From NCBI RefSeq assembly GCF_024298845.1, contig NZ_CP101156.1:2480001-2544000 (forward strand): 64,000 nt of DNA, in the 5' to 3' direction. Shown in pieces: positions 35,371 to 47,400 of the stretch (positions are counted from its first letter, which is position 1; each line of letters opens with the position of its first letter). Made by a program: the position numbers and the translations under genes. Under the pieces are notes generated by a model, which saw nothing but the letters and a program-made list of their open reading frames with translations, did no database searches and was not told where the DNA came from. Origin of the DNA: Natronosalvus amylolyticus. Lineage in GTDB: Archaea > Halobacteriota > Halobacteria > Halobacteriales > Natrialbaceae.

Positions 35371-36844
<1,474 letters not shown>

Positions 36845-36880
36845 ACAGAACGGGACTGGGGCGACGCCCCAGCCCACCAC

Positions 36881-36938
36881 GGTCCGTTCGCGACCGCCCG
36901 CTCGGCCGACCGAGCACCTTTGAACTATCAAGGCTAAC
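36881..36938 (+). other. 16S rRNA processing stem, 3' arm
   Basis: Reverse complement of the 5' arm (36881-36889 with 35300-35308; 36922-36938 with 35249-35265). It lies between 16S and tRNA-Ala. Confidence 0.88.
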
Positions 36939-36959
36939 GTTGTGCCCCCGAGAGGGGGT

Positions 36960-37031
36960 GGGCCCATAGCTCAGTGGTAGAGTGCCTCCTTTGCAAGGAG
37001 GATGCCCAGGGTTCGAATCCCTGTGGGTCCA
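36960..37031 (+). tRNA. tRNA-Ala(UGC) in the 16S-23S spacer
   Basis: 72 nt. Acceptor GGGCCCA (36960-36966) pairs with TGGGTCC (37024-37030), discriminator A. Anticodon stem CCTCC/GGAGG, loop TTTGCAA, anticodon TGC. T arm CAGGG-TTCGAAT-CCCTG. Its place in the spacer is standard for euryarchaea. Confidence 0.97.
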
Positions 37032-37166
37032 TCTCTCGGGTGATGATCGATACACTCTTCGTGAGTGTTCCTCATCTGATCCCGAATTAACCGATGCACC
37101 TCCCCGCGTAAGCGAGGTAGGGAAGGGTGAATGCACGCCAGCCGTCTACTGGCTGTGCAGATGACA

Positions 37167-37187
37167 CCGTATGTACGTGTAGTCCAG
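37167..37187 (+). other. 23S rRNA processing stem, 5' arm
   Basis: Pairs with 40216-40236 over 21 positions with a single mismatch; flanking sequence (to about 37215) can extend the helix with internal bulges, as expected for a bulge-helix-bulge site. Confidence 0.85.
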
Positions 37188-37256
37188 GCGTCCACTGGAC
37201 CCGTTCCCGGGTCACATCGCTGCTCATTACGAGCAGCACCCAAGATCCGAAAGAAC

Positions 37257-40165
<2,909 letters not shown>

Positions 40166-40215
40166 TTCATTTCACATGGATCTGCACTGGACCCGTGAAC
40201 GGGTCCAGGCGTTAA

Positions 40216-40236
40216 CTGGACTACACGGACATACGG
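40216..40236 (+). other. 23S rRNA processing stem, 3' arm
   Basis: Reverse complement (one mismatch) of 37167-37187. Confidence 0.85.
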
Positions 40237-40239
40237 TTT

Positions 40240-40307
40240 ACCGATTACAGGTTGACTCACACGGCTTCAGGGTCGTGTGAGAGACGGTTCGAGTCCGTCT
40301 ATCGGCA
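40240..40307 (+). other. tRNA-like cloverleaf lacking a D arm, 23S-5S spacer
   Basis: CCGAT (40241-40245) pairs with ATCGG (40301-40305); CTCACACG (40256-40263) pairs perfectly with CGTGTGAG (40274-40281) around a 10-nt loop; AGACGG-TTCGAGT-CCGTCT (40282-40300) is a perfect T arm with the B-box consensus GGTTCGAGTCC. Only about 10 nt stand where a D arm should be, and the acceptor is 5 bp. A degenerate tRNA or tRNA-like processing signal; no normal tRNA can be folded. Confidence 0.5.
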
Positions 40308-40429
40308 TTACGGCGGCCAGAGCGGCGGGGTTCCTCCCGTACCCATCCCGAACACGGAAGATAAGCCCGTCTGCGTATTGGTGAGTACTGGAGTGGGAGA
40401 CCCTCTGGGAAATCTGATTCGCCGCCGAC
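40308..40429 (+). rRNA. 5S ribosomal RNA
   Basis: About 122 nt. The 5' GGCGGC and 3' GCCGCC (40421-40426) form the terminal helix, and the core CCCGTACCCATCCCGAACAC is the universal 5S signature. Ends are inferred from family length. Confidence 0.95.
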
Positions 40430-43551: not shown

Positions 43552-44259
43552 TTACTCGAGGTACTCCTCGAGTGCAGCGGCGACGACGGCTCCGGGATTG
43601 AGGCCTTCGAGGCTGGCGTGTCGACGGAGGTCCCGGTAGGCTGCGGCTGGAAGCGTGAGCTCGAGGTGGCCAAGGGTCACGCCGTGGTCGGCCAGTGCGT
43701 GCTCGATGGGGACACCGTCGTTGATTTCACTGGCGACGGTACGCACGTCGCGAACGGTGAGGTTGCCGTCGAGAGTGGCCCAGGCGAGCAGCAGTCGGGC
43801 TTCGCCACCGACACGGGCGATGTGTTTGGCGGCCGAGGGCGCAATGGCTCCCATGGCGACCTGCCGGCGGACGGCTCTCGGCAGGTCGTGGACGCGAGCC
43901 CATTTCCGGATGAACGAGACGGAGACTGAGCTACCGTCCTCGAGTGTGGCGGTTGCCCGTTCTGCGGCGGCTTTATACGAGCCTTCGCCGCGAACGAGGG
44001 CGGCACAGGCGGCTGCTCCGCGCAGCATGTACAGGTGATCTTCGTCGGCCGCTCCGGTAGCGAACTCCGCGACGGTTTCGGCGGCGAGGGCGAGGCTTTC
44101 CGGATCGGTGGGGTCGAACTGGACGGCCTGGCGGGCGTGGCTGCCGGTAACCGATTCGTCGCCGCGGATGACCGGGGCACCGACGGGCGACTCGCGATCA
44201 GTCGGCACTCGTGCTGGAGGGCTCGAGCGTGGGTTATCGTCGTCGCGATCAGCGGTCAT
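43552..44259 (-). CDS. ParB/KorB-HTH-like haloarchaeal protein
   Basis: A 235-aa protein. The N-terminal 50 residues are disordered and polar. The middle (65-185) holds helical HTH-like elements: SYKAAAERATATLEDGSSVS, FIRKWARVHDLPRAVRRQV, then APSAAKHIARVGGEARLLLA and LTVRDVRTVASE, a layout like the HTH part of ParB/KorB. The C-terminus LELTLPAAAYRDLRRHASLE with a terminal helix looks like a ribbon-helix-helix. I recall the family as DUF7119. DNA binding is inferred; no parA neighbour is present. Confidence 0.72.
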   Translation of the reverse strand: MTADRDDDNPRSSPPARVPTDRESPVGAPVIRGDESVTGSHARQAVQFDPTDPESLALAAETVAEFATGAADEDHLYMLRGAAACAALVRGEGSYKAAAERATATLEDGSSVSVSFIRKWARVHDLPRAVRRQVAMGAIAPSAAKHIARVGGEARLLLAWATLDGNLTVRDVRTVASEINDGVPIEHALADHGVTLGHLELTLPAAAYRDLRRHASLEGLNPGAVVAAALEEYLE

Positions 44260-44382: not shown

Positions 44383-44559
44383 TCACTCCTCGCGTTTTTC
44401 AGCGAGGTGCTCCCAGATTTCCGTACAGCCGGCACCGGGTTCGACGTCGTCGAGGTGACTGGTATCCGTTTCGTCGCTCGTATCGTCCGAGTCGGTGGGT
44501 TCCGCTCGAGCGGCCTGCTCGTCTTCGGGCTGTAGATCGTTCGTTGCGAGGTGGGTCAT
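44383..44559 (-). CDS. 58-aa acidic micro-protein ending GAGCTEIWEHLAEKREE
   Basis: Starts at ATG 44559 and stops at TGA 44383. The first half is acidic and disordered (PEDEQAARAEPTDSDD); the end DVEPGAGCTEIWEHLAEKRE has a single Cys and looks like a folded, conserved tail. Its start codon overlaps the stop codon of the preceding 41-aa ORF (ATGA), which indicates coupled translation. Function unknown. Downstream 44260-44382 holds no gene. Confidence 0.6.
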   Translation of the reverse strand: MTHLATNDLQPEDEQAARAEPTDSDDTSDETDTSHLDDVEPGAGCTEIWEHLAEKREE

Positions 44560-44681
44560 CGCGTCTCCTCCGTGGTCGCGGGTGTGGTTTCGAGATCGGA
44601 TTCCGAACGGGTATCGAACAGTTCCGGGGCGACGTCTGCGGGGGCGTGTTGTCGGCTTCGTGTCGACAGGTCGGCTGTCAT
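44556..44681 (-). CDS. 41-aa micro-protein, first gene of a two-gene micro-operon
   Basis: ATG 44681 to TGA 44556. A TATA-like TTAAAC (44710-44705, minus strand) is centred about 26 nt upstream, the standard spacing for a leaderless haloarchaeal mRNA. The product is polar (TRSRQHAPADVAPELFDTRS) without Cys. Its stop overlaps the start of the 58-aa ORF. Divergent from the zinc-ribbon gene at 44897. No function can be assigned. Confidence 0.5.
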   Translation of the reverse strand: MTADLSTRSRQHAPADVAPELFDTRSESDLETTPATTEETR

Positions 44682-44896
44682 ACCCTGCTGTATGGAGGTC
44701 ACCCGTTTAACACCGACTTCGCAAGCAAGCGATACCCGCACTCTCGTACGGCGGTAACGATTGCCCGTATCTCGGTCGCCGATGTGTGGGGGTATCTCGC
44801 CCCTTGCTGTCGGTTTTTCCCACGGGGTCTGTCATGGGCGATGATAAGGATTGTGCCGGTCGATGGATGCAGGGTGGATTGGGCCGAGGTTTCGGT

Positions 44897-45217
44897 ATGG
44901 CAATCGCCCTTCGTACGCTGGACGACGGTGCGTGGATCAGCGTCAACGACTCCCGGGAAGTCGGCGTGAGCGACGTCTGGATACTCGAGTGCGAGGACTG
45001 CTGTTCGTGTCCGCTCTCGTATATCCTCCTCGAGGGATTCACTGATGTCCGCGTCGATGGCACCCACGTCGTCGCCGGAACCGTGGGACGGTGTCTCGAG
45101 TGTGGACAGCGGGTCTCTATCGATCGGCTGCCGGTCGGCCGGGTGATCGACGGCGAGTTCGAGCGCTACGACCCGGCGAGCGTCTCGAGGGTTCGGGGGG
45201 CGGTCGAGTCGCTGTAA
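44897..45217 (+). CDS. Small zinc-ribbon protein
   Basis: 106 aa from ATG 44897. Two cysteine clusters, CEDCCSC (about 35-41) and CLEC (about 70-73), suggest a zinc ribbon; between them is a hydrophobic strand YILLEGFTDVRVDGTHVVAG. The acidic, well-behaved C-terminus (RVIDGEFERYDPASVSRVRG) supports coding on this strand rather than the opposing 207-codon frame. It lies 111 bp before the nitrite reductase and may be cotranscribed. No known function. Confidence 0.65.
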   Translation: MAIALRTLDDGAWISVNDSREVGVSDVWILECEDCCSCPLSYILLEGFTDVRVDGTHVVAGTVGRCLECGQRVSIDRLPVGRVIDGEFERYDPASVSRVRGAVESL

Positions 45218-45328: not shown

Positions 45329-47104
45329 ATGCCGAGCGACGTCGAGAACTGGAAGGACGAACTGTACGGGACGGATATTCGGGCCGAAATCGATCGATTC
45401 GCCGAGTCAGGCTGGGAGACGATTCCCGAAGACGAGAAAGATGCCTGGTTCGAGCGGTTCAAATGGTACGGGTTGTACCACCAGCGCGCGGGCCAGGAGT
45501 CGTATTTCATGCTTCGAATCGGCCCACCGGCCGGTGTGCTCGAGCCGGGACAGTTTCGCGTGCTCGCCGAACTCGCGAAGGAGTATTCGACGGGGCCGAT
45601 CGAAAACCCCGAGTTCGGCAACGGCTGGCTCGACGTGACGACGCGCCAGGCCATCCAGTTGCACTGGATCAACCTCGAGGACGTTCCCGAGATTTTCGAC
45701 CGACTCGACGAGGTAGGGCTGTCTGCGGTGCAGGCCTGTGGTGACTCCTGGCGAAACATCGTCGGATGTCCGGTTGCCGGCAAGGACAAACACGAGCACG
45801 TCGACGCCCATCAACTGGCCCACGACCTCCACGACACGTTTAAAGAAAACGAGGCGCACTCGAACCTGCCACGAAAGTGGAAGGTATCGGTGACGGGCTG
45901 TGACGAGGGCTGTGGACAGGGCGACATCAACGACCTCGCGTTCGAACCGGCCAGAAAGGAGATCGGTGGCGAAACAGTCACCGGGTACAACGTTCGCGTC
46001 GGGGGCGGCCTCGCCCGGAACGAACCTCGATTCGCCCGGAACATCGACGTCTTCGCCACGCCCGAACAGGCCGTCGAGGTCGCGGGCGGCATCTCCGCGC
46101 TCTTTCGTGACCACGGAAACCGCGAAAACCGCTACGCTGCACGCATCAAATTCCTCGTCGACGAGTGGGGTCCCGAGAAGGTTCGTACGGTGCTTCAAGA
46201 GGAGTACATCGACTGGGAACTCGAGACCGCTGGCGAGGACCTGCGTTCGGAGTATTCGTACAACGCTGGAGAGGCCGACGGGAAACACGACCACGTCGGC
46301 GTCCACGAACAGGACGACGGAAACTACTACGTCGGCTTGAACGTCCTCGTGGGTCGAATCGGGGCCGACGATGCCCTCGAATTGGCCGACATCGCCGACG
46401 AACACGGTTCGGGCGAGGTTCGACTCACCCAGCGACAGAACATCGTCCTGACTGACGTTCCAGCGGGGAACCTCGAAGCGTTGCAATCGGAGGCTCAACT
46501 CGAGCGTTACAGTCCGGACCCACATCCGTTCCAACGTGGCTCTATCGCGTGTACTGGCACGGAGTTCTGTTCGCTCTCGATCGTCGAGACGAAAAATCGA
46601 CAGGTGCGGTTTTCGCGCTGGCTGGTCGACAACGTCGAGTTGCCCGAGGGCGTCGAGAACTTCCACATTCACCTGTCGGGGTGTACCGCCTCGTGTGCCC
46701 AGCCCCAGATCGCCGACGTCTCGCTTCGCGGGATGAAGACCCGCAAGAACGGCGAACCGGTCGAGGCGCTCGACATCGGGTTGGGGGGTGGCCTGGGCGG
46801 GAACCCGCAGTTTGCCTCCTGGGTCACAGAGCGAGTCCCCGTCGACGAGGTTCCTGGAGCAATCGCGAACTTGCTTGCGAACTTCGAGGCCGAACGCGAG
46901 ACGGGCCAGTCGTTCAGGGAGTTCGTCCTCGAGCGTGACGACGAGCAACTGGCCGAACTAATCGAGCCCGAGGAGACGAGTTACGAGGATCCGTTCATGC
47001 ACAACACGAAACGAACGTGGTATCCGTACGCGGATCAGGACGGGCTGGACGAGAGCCCGGCCCCGGCTCGTCCCGACGGATCACCGATCAGTGCCGACGA
47101 CTGA
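45329..47104 (+). CDS. nirA: Ferredoxin-dependent nitrite (or sulfite) reductase
   Basis: A 591-aa siroheme-[4Fe-4S] reductase with two repeated halves (NIR_SIR ferredoxin-like and catalytic domains). The cluster/siroheme ligands are C408 and C414 (CTGTEFC) and C452 and C456 (CTASC). GWLDVTTRQAIQLHWI is the substrate-side Arg motif of the N-half and RLTQRQNIVLTDV its counterpart. The reaction is six-electron reduction of nitrite to ammonium for assimilation. Nitrite is preferred over sulfite by overall similarity, but this is not proven. No nitrate reductase or transporter is in the window. Confidence 0.85.
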   Translation: MPSDVENWKDELYGTDIRAEIDRFAESGWETIPEDEKDAWFERFKWYGLYHQRAGQESYFMLRIGPPAGVLEPGQFRVLAELAKEYSTGPIENPEFGNGWLDVTTRQAIQLHWINLEDVPEIFDRLDEVGLSAVQACGDSWRNIVGCPVAGKDKHEHVDAHQLAHDLHDTFKENEAHSNLPRKWKVSVTGCDEGCGQGDINDLAFEPARKEIGGETVTGYNVRVGGGLARNEPRFARNIDVFATPEQAVEVAGGISALFRDHGNRENRYAARIKFLVDEWGPEKVRTVLQEEYIDWELETAGEDLRSEYSYNAGEADGKHDHVGVHEQDDGNYYVGLNVLVGRIGADDALELADIADEHGSGEVRLTQRQNIVLTDVPAGNLEALQSEAQLERYSPDPHPFQRGSIACTGTEFCSLSIVETKNRQVRFSRWLVDNVELPEGVENFHIHLSGCTASCAQPQIADVSLRGMKTRKNGEPVEALDIGLGGGLGGNPQFASWVTERVPVDEVPGAIANLLANFEAERETGQSFREFVLERDDEQLAELIEPEETSYEDPFMHNTKRTWYPYADQDGLDESPAPARPDGSPISADD

Positions 47105-47106
47105 CC

Positions 47107-47400
47107 ATGGCTGACCGACTGATGCGCGTTACCGCGTATACGACACTCGAGCTGGCCGACGTCCTCGTGAAAGGCCACGATTTCGAGACCGAACAGTACG
47201 CGGTGGTTGACGCGACCGCTGATCGAAAATCACCAGAACACGTCAAACTCCAGTTCGAAGCTGACAACATGACCGAAACCCACCTCCCTGCGCACATGGA
47301 AGAACTCAGGTTCACGCCCGAGCAAGCACGAGCGCTGGCGGCCGACCTCGAGGAACACGCGGCTCGAGTGGAAACGGCCCTCGGCGAGTCGTCGGCGTAA
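47107..47400 (+). CDS. Small conserved protein linked to nitrite reductase (DUF6360-like)
   Basis: A 97-aa acidic protein starting 2 bp after the nitrite reductase stop, so clearly cotranscribed. It has an alpha/beta pattern: MRVTAYTTLELADVLVKGHDF, YAVVDATADRKSPEHVKLQF, and a helical end (FTPEQARALAADLEEHAARVE). No Cys or metal motif. I recall a haloarchaeal family DUF6360 of this form. A role in assembly or regulation of the reductase is inference from the operon. Confidence 0.75.
   Translation: MADRLMRVTAYTTLELADVLVKGHDFETEQYAVVDATADRKSPEHVKLQFEADNMTETHLPAHMEELRFTPEQARALAADLEEHAARVETALGESSA

Follow-up and report, generated by a model that had tools for sequence, protein, structure and literature searches.

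Two overlapping microprotein genes that follow NirA-type siroheme reductases across haloarchaea

Small proteins that work alongside siroheme reductases are known from other systems, the DsrC/TusE sulfur carriers and the small subunit NirD being partners of other siroheme reductases. The locus described here, in which genes for microproteins of 41 and 58 residues (p41 and p58) lie near a gene for a NirA-type enzyme, resembles these in idea only, with a small protein encoded beside a siroheme reductase and a conserved Cys in p58; p41 and p58 are, in contrast, much shorter, without a recognizable fold and without a Pfam match at E ≤ 1. The adjacent enzyme belongs to the same family as the ferredoxin-dependent nitrite reductase NirA/NasD of haloarchaea; the enzyme purified from Haloferax mediterranei, however, is described as a 66 kDa monomer (PMC2483277), and this makes a tight stoichiometric subunit less likely. 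A rhodanese domain is fused to 19 of 529 haloarchaeal NirA proteins (PMC11237513), and these fusions suggest a sulfur role for some NirA. With regard to gene arrangement, experiments on 14 overlapping pairs from Haloferax volcanii and E. coli showed 13 to be coupled in translation (PMC6728339), and genes whose products are subunits of one heteromeric complex are enriched in short overlaps (PMC10666635). The p41–p58 pair shares with such coupled pairs (TeRe) a conserved 4-nt ATGA overlap and the same class of organisms, but differs in that both products are microproteins and in that coupling is predicted from sequence. The haloarchaeal microproteins with two C(P)XCG zinc-finger motifs (e.g., HVO_0758; PMC10716476) are alike in origin and in being under 70 aa, whereas the p41 and p58 alignments contain no C(P)XCG motif. 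The strings ADVAPEL, APADVAPEL and GCTEIWEHL were absent as text from the literature searched, which left most subscription journals outside its scope.

Features of the locus are listed in Table 1; the window is the whole stretch of DNA that was analyzed, 64,000 nt from Natronosalvus amylolyticus. Among the named loci fetched, that of Natronosalvus hydrolyticus (L051) is the nearest relative of the region.

Table 1. Features of the p41–p58 locus and its neighbors, in positions of the window.
Feature	Position	Strand	Basis
p41, 41-aa ORF from ATG to TGA, first of the two micro-operon genes	44556..44681	-	ORF list, family alignment, class search, selection
p58, 58-aa ORF, second gene of the micro-operon	44383..44559	-	ORF list, family and class searches
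ATGA common to p41 stop and p58 start	44559-44556	-	
p41 conserved motif RQHAPADVAPELF, residues 10-22	44616..44654	-	alignments
p58 conserved core HLDDVEPGAGCTEIWEHLAEKR, residues 35-56	44392..44457	-	alignments
Conserved putative promoter region, GGGTATCGCTTGC element and TATA-like box	44705..44737	-	ATG at fixed 56-nt offset
DUF7119 (PF23433), predicted ParB/Noc-like DNA-binding fold, 123 nt downstream of p58	43552..44259	-	
106-aa predicted all-beta four-Cys protein, divergent neighbor, upstream of nirA	44897..45217	+	invariant CxC, CxxCG
nirA, NirA-type siroheme/4Fe-4S reductase (NIR_SIR)	45329..47104	+	domain scan
DUF6360 protein, downstream of nirA	47110..47400	+	

On the minus strand, p41 opens with the ATG at 44681 and runs for 41 codons to end in CGA-TGA (stop at 44558–44556), while p58 extends from an ATG at 44559–44557 to a stop at 44385–44383. 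An earlier note, made from the sequence alone, had claimed that the two ORFs overlap by ATGA, and the sequence bears this out. The TATA-like box that it placed 26 nt before the first ATG is also there: GTTAAAC occupies 44711–44705, and within it TTAAAC (44710–44705) spans the positions 29–24 nt ahead of the p41 ATG. The GAGCTEIWEHL motif that it assigned to the tail of p58 does lie near the end, at residues 42–52 of 58, but is not terminal. As for the nitrite reductase said to adjoin the pair, no long gene on that side is closer than nirA, with the 106-aa four-Cys ORF in between, and the adjacency looks like a functional link beyond mere position.

The product of nirA in the window has the domains NIR_SIR (5e-47) and NIR_SIR_ferr (4.6e-41). 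Its nearest solved structure is 3b0l, which is named a nitrite reductase (3e-87), and it is also near 1zj8 (5e-65), which we take to be the NirA that a reference title calls a sulfite reductase. The four-Cys family of 106 aa that precedes nirA has invariant CxC and CxxCG and an all-beta predicted model (pLDDT 85.5), for which a comparison with the PDB gave no match (best E 0.57). On the other side, an rRNA operon with 16S and 5S signatures lies at 35371–40336 (+), convergent to p41-p58-DUF7119, with the 5S signature ~4 kb past p58. Of the 80 named loci, 19, from several genera, have such signatures on the p58 side, a count to be read with the fact that many contigs end earlier; this proximity was considered as a clue and set down to synteny.

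Of 68 distinct sequences, 59 have the p41 stop overlapping the p58 start by 4 nt (51 ATGA, 8 GTGA). The remaining junctions comprise an 8-nt overlap in six sequences, an in-frame fusion in one and other arrangements in two; the fusion is from Haloparvum sedimenti (L127), and L149 holds the same fused protein. Upstream, a scan of 111 loci (the window, L001–L030 and L051–L130) showed the element GGGTATCGCTTGC or a close variant of it (44737–44725 in the window) ahead of p58 in 65, with 56 distinct sequences. In 65 of the 65 loci that have the element, an ATG lies exactly 56 nt from its start. In the window the ATG so placed belongs to p41, in Natrinema-type relatives without p41 to p58; the simplest reading would be a leaderless promoter whose start is fixed, the Natrinema-type relatives having lost p41. 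Together, the conserved promoter, the conserved 4-nt overlap, the conservation of the proteins and the selection on them agree with the proposal of the earlier note that this two-gene micro-operon looks expressed, and p41 and p58 are almost certainly protein genes of one operon.

Conservation in close relatives, on which that proposal depended, is clear: a search of 125 genomes of the family returned p58 homologs in 119 (E ≤ 1). In the class as a whole p58 was detected in 365 of 391 genomes at E ≤ 0.01, often in more than one copy (best 15 candidates scored per genome). The family is conserved mainly toward the C-terminus, as H-L-x-x-[VIL]-x-x-G-x-G-C-[TA]-E-[IV]-W-E, with a core of HLDDxExGxGCTEIWEHLSExR. 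Further loci have K, R, E or T in place of His51 and D or S in place of Glu50, so these two residues are not invariant. The window protein contains one Cys. None of 17 members matched any Pfam family at E ≤ 1, the window protein had no match in NCBIfam, and solved structures gave no match (best E 1.1). Genes of p58 type are also found in two Natrinema plasmids, and both plasmid records annotate p58 as a hypothetical protein, which runs against the statement in the earlier note that such microproteins are usually missed in annotation. Some p58 paralogs lie in unrelated neighborhoods. A virus origin was considered and rejected, as the p58 profile found no relative in viral_contigs.

p41 represents another, new family. 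A first search with the single sequence gave weak matches, the best of them directly 5′ of p58 matches, and reading the loci 5′ of p58 showed the motif RQHxSADVAPEL[FY] in the variant form RQH[ATV][SP]AD[VA]APEL[YF]. The p41 profile was found in 178 of 391 class genomes at E ≤ 1e-3 (hand tally; best 20 candidates scored per genome), and when up to 150 candidates were scored in a re-run the best value was unchanged in all 21 genomes. In all 30 of the best class matches, which include the window's own locus and one fused gene, p58 follows directly 3′. Among the 80 named loci (the best 80 of 193 named p58 loci), 20 score at least 36 bits with the profile and the remaining 60 nowhere exceed 10.9 bits. 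The window protein contains no Cys and has no match in NCBIfam; none of 15 members matched a Pfam family at E ≤ 1, solved structures gave nothing at E ≤ 10, and no p41 was found on plasmids at E ≤ 1.

Both families follow NirA-type siroheme reductases, a relation newly found here. NirA-type proteins occur in 342 of 391 genomes (E ≤ 1e-20; best three candidates scored per genome). At E ≤ 1e-3, p41 is present in 178 of the 342 NirA-positive genomes vs. none of the 49 NirA-negative ones, and p58 (E ≤ 0.01) is absent from three of 342 vs. 23 of 49; such two-by-two counts overstate significance because related genomes are not independent. The 23 genomes that lack both p58 and NirA belong to 14 genera and include one that is 82% complete (G414); this co-loss may partly reflect single deletions, as p58 and nirA often adjoin. 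When all candidates were scored, 26 of 26 p58-negative genomes were still negative (E > 0.1, with weak values of 0.13 or more in eight), and of the 23 double negatives 19 were re-run in this way for NirA, none of which gave a match at E ≤ 1e-5.

Genomic position points the same way. Of the 20 named loci that carry p41, 19 have a nirA gene immediately upstream on the opposite strand, vs. 19 of 60 without p41, one of the latter (L061) having a more distant NirA with 42% identity. Second copies of p41 found away from p58 lie directly behind a paralogous nirA (nirA2), which encodes ~588 aa. Of 119 genomes searched for nirA2, 53 had a match; among the 30 best loci, a p41-type gene starts between -8 and +7 nt from the nirA2 stop in 18 and is absent in 12, or is present in 14 of 26 if the four loci that prompted the search are left out. 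This arrangement is also seen in L203, L204, L242, L248, L249, L255, L262, L263 and L264, and it spans four families (f1, f4, f7 and f8). In two of the NirA2 proteins (L202, 2177–3940; L203, 2179–3939), the N-terminal half-repeat has no Cys where others read TGCxxGCAQ, the replacement segments being SGTPEGGAQ and TGSKDGSAQ, respectively.

The link has exceptions. p41 is absent (E ≤ 1e-3) from 164 of the 342 NirA-positive genomes, and the named loci that have nirA alongside p58 without p41 include those of Natrialba, Haloarcula, Halosimplex and others. A p58-family gene is kept in 26 of the 49 NirA-negative genomes. One locus (L062) has p41 and p58 with no adjacent nirA; in another (L028, genome G021), nirA is near p58 and the first ORF is a decayed p41 that has lost the motif.

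p41 and p58 are likely tied in function to NirA-type enzymes, and we regard them as probably unrecognized NirA helpers because both tend to come and go with the NirA-family enzyme. Our preferred reading, which we hold at about even odds, is of a translationally coupled microprotein pair that serves NirA-type siroheme reductases by direct action on the enzyme, a helper split into a docking part, p41, and an active part, p58. In such a scheme, the p41–p58 mRNA would be leaderless, beginning at or beside the p41 ATG, and a shared promoter with its TATA-like box ~27 nt ahead of that ATG would drive both genes. Ribosomes ending p41 would re-initiate on p58 and so yield matched amounts of the two proteins. 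The p41 segment RQHxSADVAPEL[FY] would then be the peptide that docks onto NirA, and the work itself would fall to the C-terminal segment of p58 with its Cys, whether by inserting a cofactor, by handling sulfur or redox chemistry, or by gating. Taken more broadly, the service to NirA could lie in docking, maturation, regulation, electron handling or turnover, with contact to NirA presumed. It is distinctly unlikely, though conceivable, that the two are halves of a new class-wide microprotein cofactor and a minimal counterpart of DsrC, in which a portable ADVAPEL segment docks and the p58 Cys (GxGCTEIWE) serves as thiol carrier or redox gate; the segment may be called portable in that its gene is attached to two NirA paralogs and is once fused to p58.

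The neighboring DUF7119 gene offers another partner. Its product was found at 73 of the 80 p58 loci, and its predicted model (pLDDT 80) resembles ParB/Noc in Foldseek (probability 1.00, best E 0.054). HTH_ParB was matched in six of six DUF7119 members (E ≤ 0.1, best 2.3e-6), with the window copy under the cut-off, and the literature search returned no paper on DUF7119. With this ParB/Noc-like fold, and with a divergent layout that leaves 215 nt between the ATGs of p41 and the four-Cys gene, p41 and p58 could be co-regulators of a ParB-type protein that controls the divergent nirA promoter, which we consider unlikely. DUF7119, present in 378 of 391 genomes, persists in 19 of the 23 that lack p58 and NirA, and it was found at none of 43 nirA2 loci read (with flanks of 1.5–4 kb, and with four of the places represented twice); both observations weaken a partnership with DUF7119 alone. 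Measured against DUF7119 as a control, p58 tracks NirA more closely, but the control is not clean, since DUF7119 itself is missing from nine of 49 NirA-negative vs. four of 342 NirA-positive genomes.

A further question is whether the p41 peptide matters at all, or whether p41 is a cis-acting leader that only brings ribosomes to p58, its peptide sequence having no role. The p41 ATG does occupy the promoter-proximal place that the p58 ATG holds elsewhere, and at loci without an adjacent nirA a first ORF running into the p58 start is kept while the motif has decayed (L071, L121 and L068, and partly L020). We nevertheless find this reading very doubtful, as the amino-acid motif is conserved in spite of free synonymous change. 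Pooled over 12 pairs of related loci, which include one identical pair and use two loci twice, pN/pS is 0.27 for p41 and 0.26 for p58, which places both genes under purifying selection; within the 13-aa p41 motif, pN is 0.014 and pS 0.248. The p41 motif is thus under protein-level selection. Across 60 distinct sequences in which the motif is followed by p58, third positions vary and the residues stay fixed, the four codons for Ala9 being used 16, 14, 13 and 17 times. The search pattern itself fixed residues 6, 7 and 9–12 and allowed V or A at residue 8; at the free positions (1–5 and 13) the counts out of 60 were R 53, Q 48, H 56, A 37, S 48 and Y 36.

Arrangements in which the motif stands apart from p58 also argue against a leader without a peptide role. 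The gene with the p41 motif behind nirA2 has no p58 motif in the fetched stretch, the fusion in Haloparvum joins p41 and p58 in frame, and Haloarcula-type genomes carry a lone p41-like gene. This last gene reads CRQxAPADVAPEL in L251, L254, L256, L257 and L258, with a Cys-containing tail in L251 and L257. In genus g36, which has the p58 of Haloarcula, it lies between ftsY and an aldolase gene (names read off translations, neighbors read in L256 and L257), and no nirA was found within 1.5 kb of it. At five loci (L071, L121, L068, L020 and L028), the first ORF is losing or has lost the p41 motif and still runs into the p58 start. These ORFs possibly form a decay series that separates a role in coupling from a role of the peptide.

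As short acidic chains, each conserved mainly in one segment, p41 and p58 could also be targeting or degradation adaptors, carrying short linear motifs that tag NirA (or perhaps a NirA-bound state) for shared machinery such as a protease, and the p58 paralogs away from nirA could point to machinery of that shared kind. We rate this reading as highly improbable. That the two are spurious ORFs is practically impossible: chance ORFs do abound in GC-rich haloarchaeal DNA (83 of at least 30 aa overlap 7.5 kb here), but conservation, selection, the fixed overlap and the fixed promoter spacing refute this.

If p41 and p58 do serve NirA, then the assembly, regulation or substrate choice of this enzyme has a missing part, which would concern the many sampled genomes with NirA-type proteins and a class in which the sole purified haloarchaeal nitrite reductase that we found described is the monomer cited above. 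A natural pair that occurs both split and fused, with a likely partner, would in addition be a tractable model for how microproteins act. The result also provides a functional lead for p58, which is encoded in 365 of 391 genomes and is a hypothetical protein where its annotation was seen. Genome G404 has two tandem p58 genes behind p41 (L197, 3760–4023), and in genome G400 the p41–p58 region occurs twice, on two contigs (L193 and L194) whose printed protein stretches are identical.
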